Shown: positions 43,641 to 55,831 of the stretch, piece after piece | How positions within the stretch are numbered: position 1 is the stretch's first letter | Layout of the letters: every line of letters starts with the position of its first letter | Assembly (NCBI GenBank): GCA_963682025.1 | Contig: CAVMKG010000213.1 | Coordinates: 39,931-103,930 of the forward strand | Reading direction: 5' to 3' | DNA from: Cordilura impudica | Taxonomy: Eukaryota; Arthropoda; Insecta; Diptera; Scathophagidae | Length of the DNA: 64,000 nt | Made by a program: the position numbers and the translations under genes | Notes under the pieces: generated by a model | Seen by the model: only the letters and a program-made list of their open reading frames with translations | What the model was told of the DNA's origin: nothing | Databases searched by the model: none

Positions 43641-44782
43641 ACTGAAAAACTTTCCAACGATATTTTTGAAAATATATAAATAACTACCTGTGTAATCAAC
43701 CACATGTTCTTCAGGGAAGTTGGTTTTTCATCTCTCCGTGACTGTGCGTGACTATGTCAAAGTTAATCCTTTTTCACAGCAAGTGTATGGACCAAGTTTC
43801 AGATCGATCGGATGAGGGTAAATAACTTTTAGATCACTCCGTGACTATGCGTGACTCTGCGTGACTACCCCAAAATTAATCTGTAGTCACAACAAGACTA
43901 TGGGCCAAGTTTCAGATCAATTGTATGAGGGGAATGGGGTTGCCCCATGGCAGACAGACAGACAGGTCAAAAGTCCTGATATCAGAATTCGTTTTAGAGG
44001 TATGGTTCCTTGGGCAAAGTTTTTTATTCTGATCCCTGGAATATTATTTTCCTTGTCACTTGAGCGATTTTTTTACCTCCCTACAAATCGACCCGCCCTA
44101 GTACATATGTATGTATGTTATTTTAAAATAAACAATAAATCCCTATTTGATAAGAACTTTTCCCCAAAATTTCGAGAAAAAACAATTTAAATTAAGGATT
44201 TGAGTGGGCCTCGGCGGTTCATGAAATATTAAATATGCGACTTTTTCAAGTCAAAAATATCTTTTTTCTCCCGATTTGTGTATGCAATCCTTTTAAGTCT
44301 TTACCTTAAAACTAAATTAATTCATTAAAATTTACTTTAAATAAATCATTCGTTTCCACAAAATGCAATTCTGTAATAATTATAATAAAATTGTACCCAT
44401 TTGTTTACATATTAGGTCATATATTTGTATTCTTTAACTAAATTGGTAATTACCAATGTAATAAATGATAAAAAAAAAATCATGTGAGTCCGATCACAAG
44501 TGTAGAGGCGCTTGTAGCACTTCTATTTAATTCTGGAATATATCTTAACAAATATAGGAAATTGGATTTTTAATTTTTTTAAAGTGACTTTACTCTATTG
44601 TGAATATCTACAAAATATATTTGCCTAAATTTAACTAAAGATGGATAAGGCAGTGCATGTCAAAGTTTGACATTTGTTGGACTAAATAGGTATTGGTTTT
44701 TCTATGTGTGTGTGTATAAGTTACCGCTGAATAAACGGAATTTTCCAACAGTTTCCAATTTTTTTTTGTATTGTTGAAAAGC

Positions 44783-44790
44783 TATAAAAG
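44783..44790 (+). promoter_or_regulatory. TATA box of the 5' LTR
   Basis: TATAAAAG in GCTATAAAAGGGCTTTTC; transcript start expected near 44814. The same box is at 53349-53356 in the 3' LTR. Confidence 0.75.
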
Positions 44791-44880
44791 GGCTTTTCAA
44801 GATGAAAACCGGCCTCTTTTGCTGTTATTTCATCAAGTTTTGTTTTAAGGTGTTTGCGACAAAAATTTTTTGCGGAAAAC

Positions 44881-45282
44881 GTAAGTTAACCTCAATAATT
44901 TTTTTATAAATTTTTTTATTATTTTATCATAAATTTTATTTATGATATTCAAAGAATTAATCCTTTTTATTTTCAAAGGAATTTTGGGTTATTTAGATCT
45001 ATCCTCCACTACATAATTGAGTGTGGATTAAAATAATTTAAATTACCCGAAAAATTAACCAAAAGTGAGTTGAGCTTACGCCTAAAGTATTAACCTCAAT
45101 GTTTAGTTTTTTTTAAATAATAGAGGAATTCGTATTTTCTTTCATTAGAATTATTATCGTTGGCTAGCAGCAAAAGATTTAAATCACACGTACAAGGTTT
45201 TTTTTTGGCGAAGAAAAAAAAAGGTAACACACACATGCACTTGAAAGTTCAAACCAATCCTATAACAATTCTTAAATTTCAG
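44881..45282 (+). other. Candidate intron in the LTR/leader
   Basis: AAAAC|GTAAGT donor at 44881 and TTAAATTTCAG acceptor ending 45282, about 400 nt, beginning some 65 nt after the expected start site. This would shorten the leader before gag and remove LTR sequence from the mature RNA. Splicing is inferred from consensus only. Confidence 0.4.
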
Positions 45283-46257
45283 AACCCTAAAGTACAAGAA
45301 AAAGATAAAGCCTCTGATTAAGATTTTCCTTGTCATCATCGCTTGGTTTTATGAGCGGGAGGGGTCAAGCTCATACAACCCATAATTTTTTTGTGGGAAC
45401 GGGAAACCCTCAACAGAAACCCGACAGTTCTAAATGGCATCCAATAAAATTTGATAATCAATTTTCATTTACGTGATCAACAACATAGTCATCATCAAAA
45501 TCGACACATTTAGTGAGAAAAAAATGGTATCGGAAGTGTCTGTTAAATTGTTGGGTGGAAAAGTGTTTTAATGTAAAAATTATTGGCAAAAGTGGCAAGA
45601 AAATTAAATTTTAGTCCAAAAACCGAAAATTACAAAAAAAAAAAAAGAAATTAAAAAAAAAAAAAAAAAAAAAAATAGCTTAAATATTTAAATTGTTTTC
45701 CTATGTCAAATATAATAGATTTAAACGCTCGCTTCATACTTTTACATTTTAGATTAAGTTGAACTTAGTTATGTAAATATTAAATTAATAATTGATTTAA
45801 GTTATAGATCACATTTTTTTCACTTATTAATAAAATAATTTGAAGTATGAATCTATAAAAGGTTTTTGTCTTGATTTCCTGTAATCTGTTCGGATAGGGT
45901 CATTTTTTTTGGGATCATATATAAATTTATTGGCTTTCCACTATATGATCATGGTTGGGAGGGGTATAGGGGTTTCACATCAACACACCCTAAGTTAAAT
46001 ATAGGTCATCCGTTTCCGGCTAAATTAAATGTTTTCTTTCTTTTATTTTCTATCGGTCCCAAGCACGTACAAATAAAATTCTCCAAGTATCACATCTCAT
46101 CCAGTAACTCTCAAGCGAAAGTAGCAAAGAATCCTCCCTGTTTGCCGACGAGACAGAGGCCGGAGTTAAGGTGCGTGCTGCTGCTACTATCACTTGAAAA
46201 ACAAAATTGCTAATTGGTTAGACACTGATTGTGGTTACATGCTACATAGAGAATTTT

Positions 46258-46275
46258 TGGCGCCCAACGTGGGGC
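46258..46275 (+). other. Primer binding site, tRNA-Lys type
   Basis: TGGCGCCCAACGTGGGGC, eleven bases after the LTR end. Identical to the site of retrotransposon 1. Confidence 0.93.
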
Positions 46276-47273: not shown

Positions 47274-47471
47274 ATGGATGGCCCACATCCGGTCGAAGTA
47301 AATAGACCAGTTTGTGTCATTTGCAATGGTATTATGAATGACGTACAAGAATTACTAAAGATTAGACAATGCAAACATATTTTTCATATGGACTGTATAG
47401 AAGATTATTATCAATTGTGTCGAGAATGTCCCGTATGCAAACTAAAGTTAGTGAAGGAAGGAAAGATATAA
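47274..47471 (+). CDS. Stand-alone RING-H2 finger protein (65 aa) of retrotransposon 2
   Basis: Small intact ORF in the leader, upstream of gag. From ATG at 47274 (context CAAGATGG, good for flies) it encodes 65 residues that are almost all one RING-H2 finger: C14-x2-C17-x15-C33-x-H35-x2-H38-x2-C41-x10-C52-x2-C55. All eight zinc ligands are present. Ile16 lies between the first two cysteines and Pro53 follows the seventh ligand, positions used for E2 contact in known RINGs. A Lys follows the last ligand, the linchpin position. RING-H2 proteins are usually ubiquitin ligases, so a role in ubiquitylating host or particle proteins is plausible but unproven. A longer reading starts at 47214 (TTG, not ATG) and is less likely. 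Not found in retrotransposon 1. Confidence 0.85.
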   Translation: MDGPHPVEVNRPVCVICNGIMNDVQELLKIRQCKHIFHMDCIEDYYQLCRECPVCKLKLVKEGKI

Positions 47472-47867
47472 GAAATAAAATTTTGTTTTTGTTGTTGAAT
47501 TTTTTTTTTATTCAAGTTCTAAAGATAATTCTGCTCATTAGTTTTGGTTTCGAAAATTATTTTTTTTCGCTTTTTATAGATAATATTATATAGAATTTTA
47601 AAAATATTTCAAATTATTTTTTTTATTTTCTTTTTCATAATTAGTTTAGTAGTAGCATTGAATTCTGAATTGGTTACTTTAGATATAATTTTTTTCGTAT
47701 TAGAATATTTTCTTCATTGTTGAATTGCCTATTCAATTTATTAAATTTTTTTTCCTGAATAAAAGGGAAATTTATTATATTAGTTCAAATATTTTTTTTT
47801 TGAGTTTTTTTGTAAGACATAGTTCCTTGGTTTACTTACGTACAAAATATTTCAATTTTATTTCAAA
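47472..47867 (+). other. Leader between RING ORF and gag
   Basis: Very T-rich non-coding stretch of about 400 bases, ending in TTTCAAA just before the gag ATG. A frame at 47369-47593 overlapping the RING ORF is a shadow. Confidence 0.5.
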
Positions 47868-49364
47868 ATGCCTGTAGACGGGTCTGATCCTCCAACTGAT
47901 AGCACTAGTAATGAGACCGAGATTTCACTATCTTGCGGTATATGTGCAACTGCTATTTTAGAGGCTAAATTTCAAGACACCGCACAATGTGGACATAAAT
48001 TTCACAAGTCGTGTTGGGCAAAATACAAAAAGACGAACAAAATGTGCCCTAGTTGTCGTAGTGGTTTCTCGGTAACGCCAACCTCTGTAGTGACTCGTGG
48101 GCAAGTACAACGAGAGCTGATTTATGATGCCAATAGGAATGTAGAAAATTCTTCTTTAACCAACATTGATAATATACCTTCCATTTCTACACAAAATCAA
48201 AATGAACAAATTCGCAATTTAGTAACCGCTGCCGTTAGTGCGCAACAGGAGGAGATGTTTACTAGCCTTAGTCAACAGCTTAGTAAACTGGTTGAGACAA
48301 GTATTGAAGCCAGTTTTCGTAGACATAATACTTCTGTTCCATTTCAATGTCATAATGCTCAAGATGTAGCAGGAACAGTTTCTAACCCCACTTCTAACCA
48401 TTTACCTAGTGTAGAGCGACAAACCATTGATCAGTTGTTAGGTTTACCTACAGCTATGAATAACCAGCAAGGAGTATTCAATCAAAATTGGAATACCTCT
48501 GGTGGTAATATCACTCCAAGATCCAATGATTCGGTTAATTCGGAGAAAATTGGTCATATACTACATAATTGGAGAATTAAATTTACTGGGGATTCTAAAG
48601 CTATGTCGATCGAGAATTTCTTATATAGGGTAGAAGCATTGACTAAGCAAACTCTTAATGGTAATTTTAATCTACTTTGTGACCACATATCTTCGTTGTT
48701 TGATGGGAAGGCAAGTGACTGGTTTTGGCGATACCATCAGTCAGTTAGAGTGATTAGGTGGCCAGAGTTGTGCAAAGCTCTACGCGAGCAATATAAGGAT
48801 TCTCGCACCGATGTAGATTTTAGAGAAATGATCCGAGACAGGAAACAACGACCAAACGAAAATTTCGATAGTTTTTATGAGGCTATAATAAATTTAGCTG
48901 ATAGATTAACGCTGCCATTAGGTGAACAAGTTTTAGTTGAAATATTACGCAGAAATCTTCTCCCAGAAATTCAGCATGAATTATTAAATATAAAAATTAA
49001 TTCAGTCCCGGATTTGCGTGATACATGCCGTAGGCGGGAGTTTTTCATGCAAGACGTTGGCAGAAAACAGCATATTCAGAAGCAATTTTTTTCAAAGAAA
49101 CAAGTAAGTGAGATTATGGAGGACGACGAAATATCTCATGATGAGGAGGAAGTTTTAGCTGTTGCCCTTATATGTTGGAACTGCAACAAAGCAGGCCATC
49201 GGTACCATGATTGTCTAGAGGATAGGCGTGTGTTTTGTTATGGGTGTGGTGCACCAAATGTCTATAAGCCAAAGTGTGCTAAATGCAATTCAAAAAACTC
49301 CGGGTCGAGTGCACCGAAAAGTGCACGCAGACCAATGGATTCGACCTGTGTGAAAATCGATTGA
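47868..49364 (+). CDS. gag: Gag with N-terminal RING-H2 finger
   Basis: Intact 498-residue structural protein. ATG at 47868 in CAAAATG context. Residues 23-63 form a RING-H2 finger: C23-x2-C26-x14-C41-x-H43-x2-H46-x2-C49-x10-C60-x2-C63, with Ile25, Pro61 and an Arg64 linchpin. A Ser/Asn/Gln-rich, partly helical linker follows (66-230). Capsid-like domain is about 234-410 (WRIKFTGDSKAMSIENFLYR, then WPELCKALREQY). Nucleocapsid has CWNCNKAGHRYHDC (C-x2-C-x4-H-x4-C) and a C-x2-C-x8-C-x2-C set. Gag forms the particle and binds the RNA. A RING on Gag suggests that the particle or its partners carry ubiquitin-ligase activity, which is inference. The related gag of retrotransposon 1 has a Thr-rich stretch there instead. 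Ends in TGA inside the pol overlap. Confidence 0.95.
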   Translation: MPVDGSDPPTDSTSNETEISLSCGICATAILEAKFQDTAQCGHKFHKSCWAKYKKTNKMCPSCRSGFSVTPTSVVTRGQVQRELIYDANRNVENSSLTNIDNIPSISTQNQNEQIRNLVTAAVSAQQEEMFTSLSQQLSKLVETSIEASFRRHNTSVPFQCHNAQDVAGTVSNPTSNHLPSVERQTIDQLLGLPTAMNNQQGVFNQNWNTSGGNITPRSNDSVNSEKIGHILHNWRIKFTGDSKAMSIENFLYRVEALTKQTLNGNFNLLCDHISSLFDGKASDWFWRYHQSVRVIRWPELCKALREQYKDSRTDVDFREMIRDRKQRPNENFDSFYEAIINLADRLTLPLGEQVLVEILRRNLLPEIQHELLNIKINSVPDLRDTCRRREFFMQDVGRKQHIQKQFFSKKQVSEIMEDDEISHDEEEVLAVALICWNCNKAGHRYHDCLEDRRVFCYGCGAPNVYKPKCAKCNSKNSGSSAPKSARRPMDSTCVKID

Positions 49365-52300
49365 GCCCAACAAAACATTCTTTTCAAAATATTAATTATA
49401 CGTCACCTATTAAAGATTCAAGCTTACGTGAGAATAAATTTTCAAATTTTTCTGCCACCTCAAAGGATGATTTTAAATATACTGAAGCTGTTAATAATTC
49501 AAAACTAACCGCTACCAAAGATATTTCACCAAATGATCGCTTAGGAATTATACAAAATTCCAAAACTAACAGTGACAATTTTTCCCTTAATATCCCAGAA
49601 TTTTCTTCGAAACTACAGGATTCGTCAAATACAAAGTCAGAGTCCAAAAATAATTATATAAACAATACTGAAATAAACAGTACTCTTTCTTCAAAAATAA
49701 CAAATGCCAATTCAAAAACTCATCCACCCACTTATTTTAAGCCATATCATATACGGTTAGCAGAGTATAATGCTAAAAGAGCTGAGATTTTTGGTGAAAA
49801 ACCAACATCAAGGAAGAAAACGCGTTCGTTGGTGCGTATGAGAAATTATTGGCAAAATATTAGGAATACGCGCAGTAAATTGCTTAGTTCGGTATATGAT
49901 AGGCCTAACGATATAAGACCTTATGCAGATGTGTTGCTTTTTGGTAAACATTTTAGCGGATTATTGGACACAGGGGCATCTGTTAGTTGTTTGGGTTCCG
50001 ATGCTGCAAAAGAGTTTTTAGAATCAAACAGTGACTTTAGGAAAATAAAATCGGTTGTTAAAACTGCAGATGGAAGAAGTCAAGGTGTGTCAGGATGTGT
50101 TAAGACTAACATAATTTTTAGGGATGTTTCAAAACCTATAACTCTTTTCATTGTACCAAATTTGGCACAAAATTTATACCTTGGTATCGATTTTTGGCAA
50201 TCATTTGATCTCTTACCGCCCGGGTTATTAGCCGAACTGAATTTAGATTTATTTTCACCAAATTTATCAGAAATATCTGACCAAAGACCATTAGGTGCTA
50301 TTGAAAAGCAACGATTACAGGTTGTAATAAATTCATTTCCATCATTCAAGAAAGAAGGTCTTGGTCGCACTAAAGTTATTTCGCACGTTATTGATGTTAA
50401 TAACACTGTACCTATTAAACAACGCCATTTTCCAGTGTCGCCAGCGATCGAAAAGTTGATATACACCGAGCTAGATAGGATGTTGGCAATGGATGTTATT
50501 GAGGAATCCGACAGTGCGTGGTCTTCGCCAATAGTCTTGGTACGTAAGCCAGGAAAGGTTAGACTGTGTTTAGATTCGCGGAAGGTAAATTCGGTAACTA
50601 TTAAGGATGCATATCCGCTTCCGAATATTGACGGAATTTTAAGTAGGTTGCCAAAAGCCGAATTCATAACCAGCTTGGATCTTAAAGATGCGTTTTGGCA
50701 AATTCCGCTTGATAAGTTGTCGAGAGATAAAACGGCATTTACTGTTCCCGGCCGCCCTCTGTATCATTTCAAGGTTATGCCTTTTGGGCTATGTAATGCG
50801 CCCCAAACTATGACAAGACTTATGGACAAGGTAGTACCGGCGACATTACGAACAGAAGTGTTCGTTTATCTGGACGACTTGTTAATCGTATCTGATACTT
50901 TTGATAGACATGTAAAAGTTTTACAAGAGCTCTCCCATTGCATTCGTTCCTCAGGACTGACCATCAATGTCGAGAAATCGAAATTTTGCGTACGAGAAGT
51001 CCGTTATCTAGGCCATTTAGTGGGTAAGGGGGTTATTCAGACAGACCCGGATAAAATATCGGCCATTATAGAATTCCCGACTCCGCGGTCTGTTAAACAA
51101 GTCAGACGCTTTTTGGGTATGTGTGGTTGGTATCGAAAGTTCATTAAGAACTATGCTTCCGAAACTGCTCCTTTAACAGATTTGTTAAAGTCACATAGGA
51201 AATTCGTTTGGAGTGATGAAGCTCAAAAAGCGTTTGAAGGTTTAAAATCTATTTTGACAACCGCACCAGTGTTGCACAGCCCTGACTTTTCGCAGCCGTT
51301 TTATATACACTGTGATGCAAGCAATACTGGAATAGGAAGTGTATTGGTCCAAAAATCTGCGGAGGGTGAAGAGTTTCCAATCGCCTTTATGTCGAAAAAA
51401 CTCAACCAAGCCCAACGAAATTATTCAGTGACCGAACAGGAGTGCCTAGCAGCAATGCTAAGCATAAAAAAATTTCGGGCATATGTCGAAGGACATGAGT
51501 TCACCGTGATAACTGATCATGCTTCGTTAAAGTGGCTCATGTCCCAGACGGACTTGAATTCGCGGTTGGCAAGATGGGCGTTAAAGCTTCAAGGGTTTAA
51601 TTTTAAAATAGAGCACAGGAAGGGTAGCCAAAATGTAGTTCCTGATGCGCTTTCGCGTACCAACATCGAAGATTTGTTCGCACTCACTAGTCAAAACCTG
51701 CCCAATTTGGACGAGACTGGGGTTTTTGTAGATTTACAATCAGAAAAATTCAAGAGTACAGAATATAAAGAACTGTTAAATAACGTACAGAAATCAATTG
51801 ACAAAACTCCTGACCTAAAAATTATAGACGGATACTTATACCGACGAACCGAACATTGTACTGGGGAACAAGTGCAAGACGACCTGGCGTGGAAGCTGTG
51901 GATCCCAAGGGATATGGTTCCAGAGGTGCTGCAAAAAGCACATGATAGTCCGTTAAGTGCTCACGGCGGTATAAATAAGACAATTGAGCGTATAAGAAGG
52001 TTTTATTTTTGGCCGAATTTAGTATGTGATGTAAAACAATATATAAATTCATGCGATATATGTAAAGGTACTAAACATCCAAATTTCTTTATGCGACCTC
52101 CAATGGGTAAAACATCTGATACATCAAGATTTTTCCAAAAGCTATACATAGATTTTTTAGGGCCATATCCGCGTTCTAAGTCTGGAAATGTGGGTATTTT
52201 CATTGTACTCGATCATTTCTCTAAATTTTGTTTCCTTAAGCCTGTAAAAAAGTTTACGGCAGACGTAGTTATGAAATATATGGAGCAGGATCTTTTCCAT

Positions 52301-52966
52301 ACTTATGGTACACCTGAAACTGTTGTTTCAGACAATGGTTCTCAGTTTAAATCTAACCAATTTAATAAATTATTACAAAATTACGGGATCAACCACGTTT
52401 ACACTGCAGTCTATTCGCCACAGTCAAATGCATCTGAACGTGTTAATCGTTCAGTTCTTTCGGCCATTCGAGCATATATTAAACACGACCAGCGTAATTG
52501 GGATGAGCACCTCAGCAGCATCAGTTGTTCGTTACGCTCATCTGTGCATGCTTCCATAGGTACGTCACCCTATTATATGGCGTTCGGACAGCATATGGTT
52601 ACTAACGGTAACACTTATGCTTTACTACGGAATTTAGAAATGTTAGACGACAGGACGATCCGTTTTACTAGAGAAGACAGTTTTGATATTATTAGAAATA
52701 GAGCTGCTAAGAACATGGCAAAACAGCAATATCGTAATGAGAAATCGTATAATCTAAGATCACGCGAAACAAGTTTTGAAGTCGGCCAGGAAGTTTTTCG
52801 AAGGAATTTCAGGCAGAGTAATTTAGAAAAAGGATATAATGCTAAATTAGGACATCCTTTTGTAAAAGCCAGGGTACGAAAGAAAACCGGATACTGTTAC
52901 TATGAACTTGAGGACTTAAATGGGCGATCCGTAGGTATTTATCACGCGAAGGATATTCGTCAATAA
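49283..52966 (+). CDS. pol: Pol polyprotein (protease, RT, RNase H, integrase), intact
   Basis: Open frame of 1227 codons in the -1 frame relative to gag. It has no ATG requirement, since translation should enter by frameshift at 49292-49298. Protease DTGASVSCLG near residue 229. Reverse transcriptase palm LDLKDAFWQ near 465 and YLDD near 529. RNase H with HCDAS near 676, TEQECLA and ITDHASLKWL. Integrase zinc finger HDSPLSAHGG ... CDICK around 886-932, then catalytic acids in YIDFLGPYP (about 955), SDNGSQF (about 1016) and SNASERVN (about 1052). The C-terminal domain with EVGQEVFRRNF ends at the stop. No chromodomain and no env follow; the stop is 100 bp before the LTR. All catalytic residues are present, so this copy may be autonomous. 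Confidence 0.96.
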   Translation: MQFKKLRVECTEKCTQTNGFDLCENRLSPTKHSFQNINYTSPIKDSSLRENKFSNFSATSKDDFKYTEAVNNSKLTATKDISPNDRLGIIQNSKTNSDNFSLNIPEFSSKLQDSSNTKSESKNNYINNTEINSTLSSKITNANSKTHPPTYFKPYHIRLAEYNAKRAEIFGEKPTSRKKTRSLVRMRNYWQNIRNTRSKLLSSVYDRPNDIRPYADVLLFGKHFSGLLDTGASVSCLGSDAAKEFLESNSDFRKIKSVVKTADGRSQGVSGCVKTNIIFRDVSKPITLFIVPNLAQNLYLGIDFWQSFDLLPPGLLAELNLDLFSPNLSEISDQRPLGAIEKQRLQVVINSFPSFKKEGLGRTKVISHVIDVNNTVPIKQRHFPVSPAIEKLIYTELDRMLAMDVIEESDSAWSSPIVLVRKPGKVRLCLDSRKVNSVTIKDAYPLPNIDGILSRLPKAEFITSLDLKDAFWQIPLDKLSRDKTAFTVPGRPLYHFKVMPFGLCNAPQTMTRLMDKVVPATLRTEVFVYLDDLLIVSDTFDRHVKVLQELSHCIRSSGLTINVEKSKFCVREVRYLGHLVGKGVIQTDPDKISAIIEFPTPRSVKQVRRFLGMCGWYRKFIKNYASETAPLTDLLKSHRKFVWSDEAQKAFEGLKSILTTAPVLHSPDFSQPFYIHCDASNTGIGSVLVQKSAEGEEFPIAFMSKKLNQAQRNYSVTEQECLAAMLSIKKFRAYVEGHEFTVITDHASLKWLMSQTDLNSRLARWALKLQGFNFKIEHRKGSQNVVPDALSRTNIEDLFALTSQNLPNLDETGVFVDLQSEKFKSTEYKELLNNVQKSIDKTPDLKIIDGYLYRRTEHCTGEQVQDDLAWKLWIPRDMVPEVLQKAHDSPLSAHGGINKTIERIRRFYFWPNLVCDVKQYINSCDICKGTKHPNFFMRPPMGKTSDTSRFFQKLYIDFLGPYPRSKSGNVGIFIVLDHFSKFCFLKPVKKFTADVVMKYMEQDLFHTYGTPETVVSDNGSQFKSNQFNKLLQNYGINHVYTAVYSPQSNASERVNRSVLSAIRAYIKHDQRNWDEHLSSISCSLRSSVHASIGTSPYYMAFGQHMVTNGNTYALLRNLEMLDDRTIRFTREDSFDIIRNRAAKNMAKQQYRNEKSYNLRSRETSFEVGQEVFRRNFRQSNLEKGYNAKLGHPFVKARVRKKTGYCYYELEDLNGRSVGIYHAKDIRQ
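49292..49326 (+). promoter_or_regulatory. -1 ribosomal frameshift signal
   Basis: A AAA AAC at 49292-49298, in register with the gag codons TCA AAA AAC. Ten bases later a hairpin GTGCAC-CGAAAA-GTGCAC (49309-49326). Pol is open in the -1 frame across it. Heptamer, spacing and stem fit the known rules. Confidence 0.85.
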
Positions 52967-53066: not shown

Positions 53067-54811
53067 TGTAGAGGCGCTTGTAGCACTTCTATTTAATTCT
53101 GGAATATATCTTAACAAATATAGGAAATTGGATTTTTAATTTTTTTAAAGTGACTTTACTCTATTGTGAATATCTACAAAATATATTTGCCTAAATTTAA
53201 CTAAAGATGGATAAGGCAGTGCATGTCAAAGTTTGACATTTGTTGGACTAAATAGGTATTGGTTTTTCTATGTGTGTGTGTATAAGTTACCGCTGAATAA
53301 ACGGAATTTTCCAACAGTTTCCAATTTTTTTTTGTATTGTTGAAAAGCTATAAAAGGGCTTTTCAAGATGAAAACCGGCCTCTTTTGCTGTTATTTCATC
53401 AAGTTTTGTTTTAAGGTGTTTGCGACAAAAATTTTTTGCGGAAAACGTAAGTTAACCTCAATAATTTTTTTATAAATTTTTTTATTATTTTATCATAAAT
53501 TTTATTTATGATATTCAAAGAATTAATCCTTTTTATTTTCAAAGGAATTTTGGGTTATTTAGATCTATCCTCCACTACATAATTGAGTGTGGATTAAAAT
53601 AATTTAAATTACCCGAAAAATTAACCAAAAGTGAGTTGAGCTTACGCCTAAAGTATTAACCTCAATGTTTAGTTTTTTTTAAATAATAGAGGAATTCGTA
53701 TTTTCTTTCATTAGAATTATTATCGTTGGCTAGCAGCAAAAGATTTAAATCACACGTACAAGGTTTTTTTTGGCGAAGAAAAAAAAAGGTAACACACACA
53801 TGCACTTGAAAGTTCAAACCAATCCTATAACAATTCTTAAATTTCAGAACCCTAAAGTACAAGAAAAAGATAAAGCCTCTGATTAAGATTTTCCTTGTCA
53901 TCATCGCTTGGTTTTATGAGCGGGAGGGGTCAAGCTCATACAACCCATAATTTTTTTGTGGGAACGGGAAACCCTCAACAGAAACCCGACAGTTCTAAAT
54001 GGCATCCAATAAAATTTGATAATCAATTTTCATTTACGTGATCAACAACATAGTCATCATCAAAATCGACACATTTAGTGAGAAAAAAATGGTATCGGAA
54101 GTGTCTGTTAAATTGTTGGGTGGAAAAGTGTTTTAATGTAAAAATTATTGGCAAAAGTGGCAAGAAAATTAAATTTTAGTCCAAAAACCGAAAATTACAA
54201 AAAAAAAAAAAAGAAATTAAAAAAAAAAAAAAAAAAAAAATAGCTTAAATATTTAAATTGTTTTCCTATGTCAAATATAATAGATTTAAACGCTCGCTTC
54301 ATACTTTTACATTTTAGATTAAGTTGAACTTAGTTATGTAAATATTAAATTAATAATTGATTTAAGTTATAGATCACATTTTTTTCACTTATTAATAAAA
54401 TAATTTGAAGTATGAATCTATAAAAGGTTTTTGTCTTGATTTCCTGTAATCTGTTCGGATAGGGTCATTTTTTTTGGGATCATATATAAATTTATTGGCT
54501 TTCCACTATATGATCATGGTTGGGAGGGGTATAGGGGTTTCACATCAACACACCCTAAGTTAAATATAGGTCATCCGTTTCCGGCTAAATTAAATGTTTT
54601 CTTTCTTTTATTTTCTATCGGTCCCAAGCACGTACAAATAAAATTCTCCAAGTATCACATCTCATCCAGTAACTCTCAAGCGAAAGTAGCAAAGAATCCT
54701 CCCTGTTTGCCGACGAGACAGAGGCCGGAGTTAAGGTGCGTGCTGCTGCTACTATCACTTGAAAAACAAAATTGCTAATTGGTTAGACACTGATTGTGGT
54801 TACATGCTACA
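53067..54811 (+). repeat. 3' LTR of retrotransposon 2
   Basis: 1745 bp, matching 44501-46246 apart from T-run and A-run lengths. Confidence 0.96.
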
Positions 54812-54818
54812 CAAGGGA

Positions 54819-55831
54819 GATGTGTAAACATCTAATAATTAAAGAAAACATCAACATCATATTTTCCAGTGCATAAAAAATAAGTCGATTATGCTGTTTT
54901 CTGAAATTCAATTGATGTTTTCTGAAATGCAATTGATGTTTTCTGAAATTAAATTGATGTTTTCTGAAATACAATTAATGTTTTCAGCAATTCAAATGAT
55001 GCTTTTTGAAATTCTATTGATGTTTTCTGAAATACAATTAATGTTCTCAGCAATTCAAATAATGCTTTTTGAAATTCAATTGATGTTTTCTGAAATTCTA
55101 ATTATGTTTTCTGAAATTCAAATGGTGGTTTCCGAAATACAATTGATGTTTTCTGAAATACAATTGATGTTTTCTGAAATTCTATTGATGTTTTCTGAAA
55201 TTCTAATTATGTTTTCTGAAATTCAAATGGTGGTTTCCGAAATACAATTGATGTTTTCTGAAATACAATTGATGTTTTCTGAAATTCTATTGATGTTTTC
55301 TGAAATTCTATTTATGTTTTCTGAAATTCAAATGATGTTTTCTGAAATTATATTGATGGTTTCTGAAATACAATTGATGTTTTCTGAAATTCTGTTGATG
55401 TTTTCTGAAATTCAATTGATGTTTTCTGAAACTCGAATGATGTTTTCTGAAATTATATTGATGTTTTCTGAAATTCTATTTATGTTTTCTGAAATTCAAG
55501 TGATGTTTTCTGAAATTCTATTGATGTTTTCTGAAATTCAATTGATGTTTTCTGAAACTCGAATGATGTTTTCTGAAATTATATTGATGTTTTCTGAAAT
55601 TCTATTTATGTTTTCTGAAATTCAAATGATGTTTTCTGAAATACAATTGATGTTTTTGAAAGTCAAATGGAAAATGTTTAGAAAAGAACATATCATAATT
55701 TTTTCACCAATACAATCATAAGTCACACAGCGTTATCTGCTTCAGCTCACACCGATATGAGTTACGCTGTTTTTGTGATTGTATTGTGAAATAGAAATTT
55801 ACCCCCCTGCGCGTATAGATGTTTACACATC
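54819..55831. mobile_element. Inverted-repeat-bounded minisatellite element
   Basis: GATGTGTAAACATCTA at 54819-54834 and its exact inverse at 55816-55831 bound the 21-bp array. Just inside the array's left is TTTTCCAGTGCATAA, also found at 21277. Mobility is inferred. Confidence 0.5.
54889..55668 (+). repeat. 21-bp minisatellite array C
   Basis: About 37 units of TTTTCTGAAATTCAATTGAT plus one base, with higher-order repeats of several units (for example 55085-55200 resembling 55190-55310). The 276-codon frame across it, with a seven-residue repeat, is a by-product. Confidence 0.95.

Follow-up and report, generated by a model that had tools for sequence, protein, structure and literature searches.

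The window is a 64,000-nucleotide stretch of the genome of the fly Cordilura impudica (contig CAVMKG010000213.1, positions 39,931 to 103,930, forward strand). It contains a young Ty3-type retrotransposon with a complete layout, and all features given here lie on the forward strand. The 5' LTR (44501..46246, 1746 bp) has a TATA-like box near 44783 and a donor-like GTAAGT site at 44881. A PBS-like sequence follows at 46258..46275, which we take to be of the tRNA-Lys type. Next come a free-standing RING-H2 ORF of 65 codons from ATG to stop (47274..47471), an interval of 396 nt with 0 ATGs between the RING stop and the gag start (47472..47867), and a gag ORF of 498 codons (47868..49364). The pol ORF (49283..52966) overlaps gag in another frame and encodes protease, RT, RNase H and integrase. 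The 3' LTR (53067..54811) is 1745 bp long. The two LTRs align over 1744 bases with 0 mismatches and 3 gap positions, and the TSD CAAG flanks the element on both sides. The initial annotation called this Ty3-type element intact. It was right in that the LTRs, TSD, gag and pol are all present, but the LTR is shortened and the Gag has 498 codons. An env was looked for after pol and none was found. Only 100 nt separate the pol stop from the 3' LTR, and the element lacks the env after pol that is expected of an errantivirus. A 21-bp tandem repeat (54787-55700) adjoins the 3' side of the element. A repeat with the same translated motif is found near a RING fragment on C5 (L044 6793-7386, reverse strand).

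The window element is one copy of what we call family A. About 1.5 kb of LTR is missing from it that is present in 10 other family A copies with LTR and RING matches. The distance from the LTR start to the RING is 2773 nt in the window versus ~4160-4340 nt in those 10 copies. Both window LTRs share the loss, so the short-LTR copy itself was transposed. Seven other copies have a Gag of 508 codons rather than 498. The best named database relative of the window Gag comes from Lucilia cuprina (54% identity).

The initial annotation described a free-standing RING-H2 gene. The gene is real, but its spread over seven lineages was missed and so was a second RING-H2 in the same element, at the start of Gag (residues 22-64, zf-RING_2 2.4e-7), ahead of a Retrotrans_gag domain at residues 274-362. 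The RING pattern is matched by 90 of the 120 best Gag relatives out of 177, some of which are short. A Gag RING is already known for Osvaldo-lineage elements. It is present in Osvaldo and Isis-like and absent in Isis (PMC3630058). Published descriptions give LTRs of 997-2055 bp for the Osvaldo lineage in Culex and a PBS complementary to tRNA-Lys (PMC3286476), and LTRs of 2574-2577 bp for Isis-like in Calliphora vicina (PMC3630058). The window element has a RING finger in Gag, long LTRs (1746/1745 bp) and a 4-bp TSD (CAAG). By Gag RING, LTR length and TSD its group fits the Osvaldo-type Ty3 retrotransposons. The Gag RING is the known part. No mention of a separate, transferable RING gene upstream of gag was met in the freely accessible papers searched. 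The available parts of PMC3630058, PMC12910113, PMC2774666, PMC12992720, PMC3286476 and PMC2577118 do not mention one before gag.

It is worth considering the free-standing ORF on its own. Reading the frame confirms the 65-codon ATG-started ORF that had been placed at 47274-47471 in the leader. Pfam zf-RING_2 recognizes it above the model's cut-off (E 1.9e-8), and its ligands are C3H2C3 (C14 C17 C33 H35 H38 C41 C52 C55). This bears out the earlier claim of eight RING-H2 ligands at canonical spacing. The start was said to be in a good context, and it reads AAG-ATG-G. The basic linchpin is a different matter. Residue 56 of the window protein is indeed K, but a basic residue is kept in only 2 of the 7 lineages that have the ORF. 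Directly after the last ligand, A and B have K, and D or E takes its place in C, D, E, G and H. All eight ligands are invariant among the 11 rows chosen for alignment, and the protein is 57-72 residues long across lineages. A RING fold is near certain from the sequence. Homologues outside this genome were sought in three ways. Among 5.8 billion predicted proteins a single-sequence search gave none and an alignment search gave none at E <= 10 (242 candidates), and in viral contigs 81 stretches fit a pattern with 0 confirmed.

The distribution of the ORF was examined by searching the fly's own genome with the RING protein. The best 150 of 669 candidates were scored, which makes the lists lower bounds. 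At least 20 matches are assigned to family A (L001-L017 and L022-L024), the least sure being L022 (76%). Counting the window, 13 of the 20 family A copies of the ORF are full-length with a start and all eight ligands. L012 has no start, L015 is short of one ligand, and L017, L022, L023 and L024 are broken. L016 keeps the start and ligands, but a deletion truncates its RING at residue 60 and joins it in frame to reverse transcriptase, leaving a 553-codon open frame. A search with Gag found at least 18 family A loci at 92% identity or more, and all 18 have a RING match upstream. The match is close by at 17 of them; at the other (C6:14653082) it is 3.9 kb upstream of gag and contains stops.

Other families of element have the ORF as well, and it is more widespread than the initial annotation supposed. 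Family B (71-75% Gag) has a RING match at 3 of 4 loci. A free-standing RING also precedes a RING-Gag in lineages C (L027, L052), D (L046, L047), E (L059, L065) and G (L060). In C the L027 gag is broken and the L052 RING has no start, and each D copy read (L046, L047, L056) has lost one ligand. With family H, described below, this gives seven lineages (A, B, C, D, E, G, H) with a free-standing RING upstream of gag. At least one relative with a RING-Gag, the family of L070, shows no RING within the 1 kb that precedes gag. Two sites in the genome (G000 C4:1846152-1867290 and C1:156966975-156988165) hold three LTRs and two RING-bearing internal regions in a row. These arrays look like products of LTR-LTR recombination.

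Within the leader the RING ORF is an island of conservation. Between the window copy and a family B copy (L040) the ORF is 75.3% identical at the DNA level (53.5% when shuffled). From the RING stop to the gag start the identity is 52.5% (shuffled 52.3%), and in the 500 nt upstream of the RING it is 60.6% (shuffled 58.9%). This island and the RING match at 18 of 18 family A gag loci mean that the ORF is not a chance frame. In the same pair Ka/Ks is 0.21 for the RING ORF (0.18 for its core) at a Ks of 0.96, with 0.14 for the whole Gag and 0.16 for Gag residues 1-70. About 19 of 35 synonymous sites differ versus 28 of 157 non-synonymous sites (Fisher p 3.9e-5). The initial annotation would have given up its claim if the ORF were broken in most copies or free of purifying selection. 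Neither was found, with 13 of 20 copies intact and a Ka/Ks of 0.21 against 0.14 for gag.

Other comparisons extend this. The E lineage against family H gives a RING Ka/Ks of 0.10 and 0.11 (p 5.3e-10 and 3.6e-8), C against H gives 0.24, and the window against L038 gives 0.17. Constraint is weaker or absent in other pairs, with ratios of 0.28 and 0.38 within E, 0.36 and 0.39 between G and D, and 0.61 and 1.34 for D copies. A pair of H copies has three non-synonymous changes and 0 synonymous ones. Close pairs offer few changes to count. Three further pairs are saturated at synonymous sites and yield no ratio. Between lineages these ratios demonstrate purifying selection on the free-standing RING. 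Judged by its codons the ORF is functional, and a function at the protein level is very likely.

One can imagine that the ORF began as a tandem copy of the RING in the Gag of its own element. The trees do not favour this. In the main RING tree (54 rows, 46 columns) there are nine free-standing rows from seven lineages, and they form one side of a branch (100/100). They group with the Gag RINGs of another clade (95/90) and apart from the RING of their own Gag. In a 38-row tree the free-standing set has 98/100, and a separate branch (100/100) unites the Gag RINGs from the window's own group. Monophyly of the other clade's Gag RINGs is not rejected there (p-AU 0.61), and the free-standing RINGs may or may not come from within that clade. 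RING trees are short of data at 46 columns. What these trees demonstrate is that the free-standing RINGs are one clade, distinct from the Gag RINGs.

Family H is the most distant carrier. Its copies L051 and L055 have a free-standing RING before a different gag, with a gap of 41 nt in L051. L053 has the RING too, and the nearest matches to H gag are ~5 kb downstream. The H Gag has a weak Retrotrans_gag match, no RING by Pfam, and no likeness to the window Gag by BLASTP (best E 1.4). The H RT is 37% identical to the window RT. We take H to be errantivirus-like (gypsy/17.6 type), as its Gag and Pol have the look of that type, but the H copy L068 differs from such elements in having no env. In this one copy the integrase frame ends ~130 nt before repeated LTR sequence, so there is no env after pol. 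We know of no RING gene in the errantivirus-like group.

A search for the H RING scored the best 150 of 603 candidates, so that these lists are again lower bounds. At least 9 matches, all with 92% identity or more, are free of stops from residue 2 or earlier to residue 64 or beyond, and seven of these start at residue 1. The other matches are broken or partial. An H gag match lies within ~0.6 kb of 8 of these 9 H RINGs. Eight relatives of the H Gag (84-88% over residues 1-200) are absent among the best 150 of 669 and best 150 of 603 RING candidates. The leader of one of them (C5:89121666) was read directly and has no RING, and C1:210469122 has a broken RING with an 86% partial Gag. The free-standing RING is thus present in an errantivirus-like family that is only distantly related, and near siblings of that family yielded no match to it.

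A direction of transfer can be proposed. H RINGs nest inside the free-standing clade of the 54-row tree, which makes Osvaldo-type elements the most likely donors and H the recipient. At the DNA level, H strongly matches the E lineage over a stretch that begins at the ATG or at most 17 nt before it and runs to near the RING end. We argue that the free-standing RING likely moved from Osvaldo-type elements to family H. L057 is a second sign of exchange between element families. Over its nt 1-683 it resembles the E lineage at 97% (with a gap), and from position 862 the resemblance, mostly at 82-83%, is to the leader of the L070 family. Here an E-lineage leader, RING included, runs into another RING-Gag family's leader and gag. 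This mosaic may be a rearrangement at one locus. As far as sequence comparison can tell, the free-standing RING is a transferable accessory gene of LTR retrotransposons.

How the ORF might be translated can be approached through its leader. With A, B, E and G represented by a single copy apiece, there are 5 ATGs between RING and gag versus 18.4 expected from summed dinucleotide shuffles. The single-lineage shuffle fractions are 0.0115 (A), 0.084 (B), 0.017 (E) and 0.092 (G). The sum leaves out L057 as a mosaic (with it, 7 versus 32.0, and 0 of 2000 shuffles as low), L065 for its early RING stop (5 ATGs in 507 nt), and L046 and L047 as decayed (20 versus 28.1 and 6 versus 10.8 expected). Other A and B copies were left out as near-duplicates (A all 0, B all 1). 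Three leaders from PBS to RING have 32 ATGs versus 30.5 expected. Taken as special to the RING, the scarcity must be rejected. RING-less leaders are also ATG-poor (7 versus 13.9 expected in L070, 4 versus 11.7 in L069), as is the stretch of H leader ahead of the RING (5 versus 10.1). All that the scarcity says is that ribosomes probably reach gag by scanning. The RING ORF itself is not depleted (9 ATGs versus 7.0 expected), which would favour re-initiation over leaky scanning. The RING ORF is likely to be translated as the upstream cistron of an mRNA that also serves gag.

Splicing could also play a part. The LTRs of A and B copies contain a 12-nt palindrome, GAAAGATCTTTC, followed at 19-27 nt by a GTAAGT donor. 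D copies have GAAAGCGCTTTC, a paired change relative to GAAAGATCTTTC, likewise 19-27 nt before a GTAAGT donor. Such palindrome-GTAAGT sites are found at L031 625-657 and, on the reverse strand and counted from the locus end, at L040 830-864 and L046 1085-1120. Besides the window, 12 long A loci were looked at and 11 contain the palindrome, as do 3 of 4 B and 2 of 2 D loci. It was searched for in the window and is nowhere there; the LTR stretch that holds palindrome and GTAAGT in A, B and D copies is missing from the window LTR, and the GTAAGT at 44881 is another one. In retroviruses a dimerisation signal is followed by the major splice donor, and the A, B and D layout resembles this. The LTR donor of these copies suggests a spliced mRNA, and splicing from it to the RING is possible. 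Several lineages have AGs in the 40 nt ahead of the RING ATG, though AGs are frequent in DNA of this kind. A splice acceptor may also lie between RING and gag.

RING-H2 proteins usually recruit E2 enzymes for ubiquitin transfer. A profile of the 11 aligned rows finds RING finger protein 38 (RNF38) as its best solved structure (9.3e-10), and RING E3 proteins rank first among solved structures. This makes ubiquitin-ligase activity of the free-standing RING plausible. A basic linchpin residue after the last ligand is a criterion for a RING-type E3, and its presence in no more than 2 of 7 lineages weakens the case for canonical E3 catalysis. We put the chances of E3 catalysis at about even.

We argue that the best explanation is an accessory gene of the Osvaldo-type Ty3 group. 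A minimal RING-H2 protein is encoded upstream of gag and kept by selection across lineages, and its gene likely passed from Osvaldo-type elements into the errantivirus-like family H. It would be translated first from the gag mRNA, after which ribosomes would scan on to gag or re-initiate there. With about even odds, the protein would be an adaptor of the E3 type: it would recruit E2 enzymes of the host, and the ubiquitin would go to a host restriction factor or to Gag. Where Gag has a RING, the two might pair. Selection, transfer to H, the upstream cistron and the E3-type adaptor, taken together, seem to us on balance probable. One can go further and propose a mobile one-domain ubiquitin ligase that spreads by leader recombination between families, is followed by re-initiation on the Gag mRNA, and counters a host restriction factor. 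We entertain this fuller proposal only tentatively.

The rival that survives best makes the RING protein a structural or regulatory partner of Gag, one that pairs with the Gag RING, for example, and adjusts assembly, with no ubiquitin being transferred. The Gag of these elements carries a RING too, the basic linchpin is absent from the free-standing RING in 5 of 7 lineages, and in L057 the E-lineage leader with its RING precedes a different RING-Gag. However, family H keeps the RING while its Gag has none by Pfam, so the protein must have some use besides pairing with a Gag RING. We regard a pure Gag partner as rather unlikely. Even so, our two best guesses at the function are that the protein recruits E2 enzymes against a host factor and that it partners Gag. 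It is also conceivable that the ORF is a cis-acting upstream ORF controlling how much Gag is translated, and that the peptide matters little. Its position before gag and the ATG-poor interval after it would suit this role. But it is the amino acids that are conserved and not merely the frame (Ka/Ks 0.10-0.24 for A-B, E-H and C-H), and the eight zinc ligands do not vary in the 11 chosen rows, which makes an effect in cis improbable. Least probable by far is a useless remnant of recombination with another RING-Gag element: the grouping with single-RING Gags of another clade (95/90), the mosaic leader of L057 and the decayed D copies would fit it, but not purifying selection at a Ks near 1 and beyond, a single clade in seven lineages, or 13 of 20 intact family A copies.

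Retrotransposons without env are usually described as having gag and pol only, and a conserved third gene departs from this. A third gene with a ubiquitin-pathway domain, common to distant families, would mean that such retrotransposons carry accessory functions like those of retroviruses. It would also be a way to study the post-transcriptional restriction of retroelements by insect hosts.

The nearest known system is the Osvaldo lineage. Osvaldo and the Isis-like elements of C. vicina share long LTRs, a 4-bp TSD, gag and pol ORFs, a Gag RING and a PBS of the tRNA-Lys type, putative in the window, with the window element, but Isis-like is described as two ORFs with a Gag RING, and the available parts of these sources mention no separate RING gene before gag (PMC3630058, PMC3286476). 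If the RING gene is mobile in the way proposed above, it can be compared to the small accessory genes of complex retroviruses. RNF38-type RING-H2 E3 ligases give the best solved match to the free-standing RING, but they are larger host proteins with a basic linchpin. The Z protein of arenaviruses is also a very small free-standing RING protein, a viral one, but it belongs to an unrelated virus and has a matrix role.
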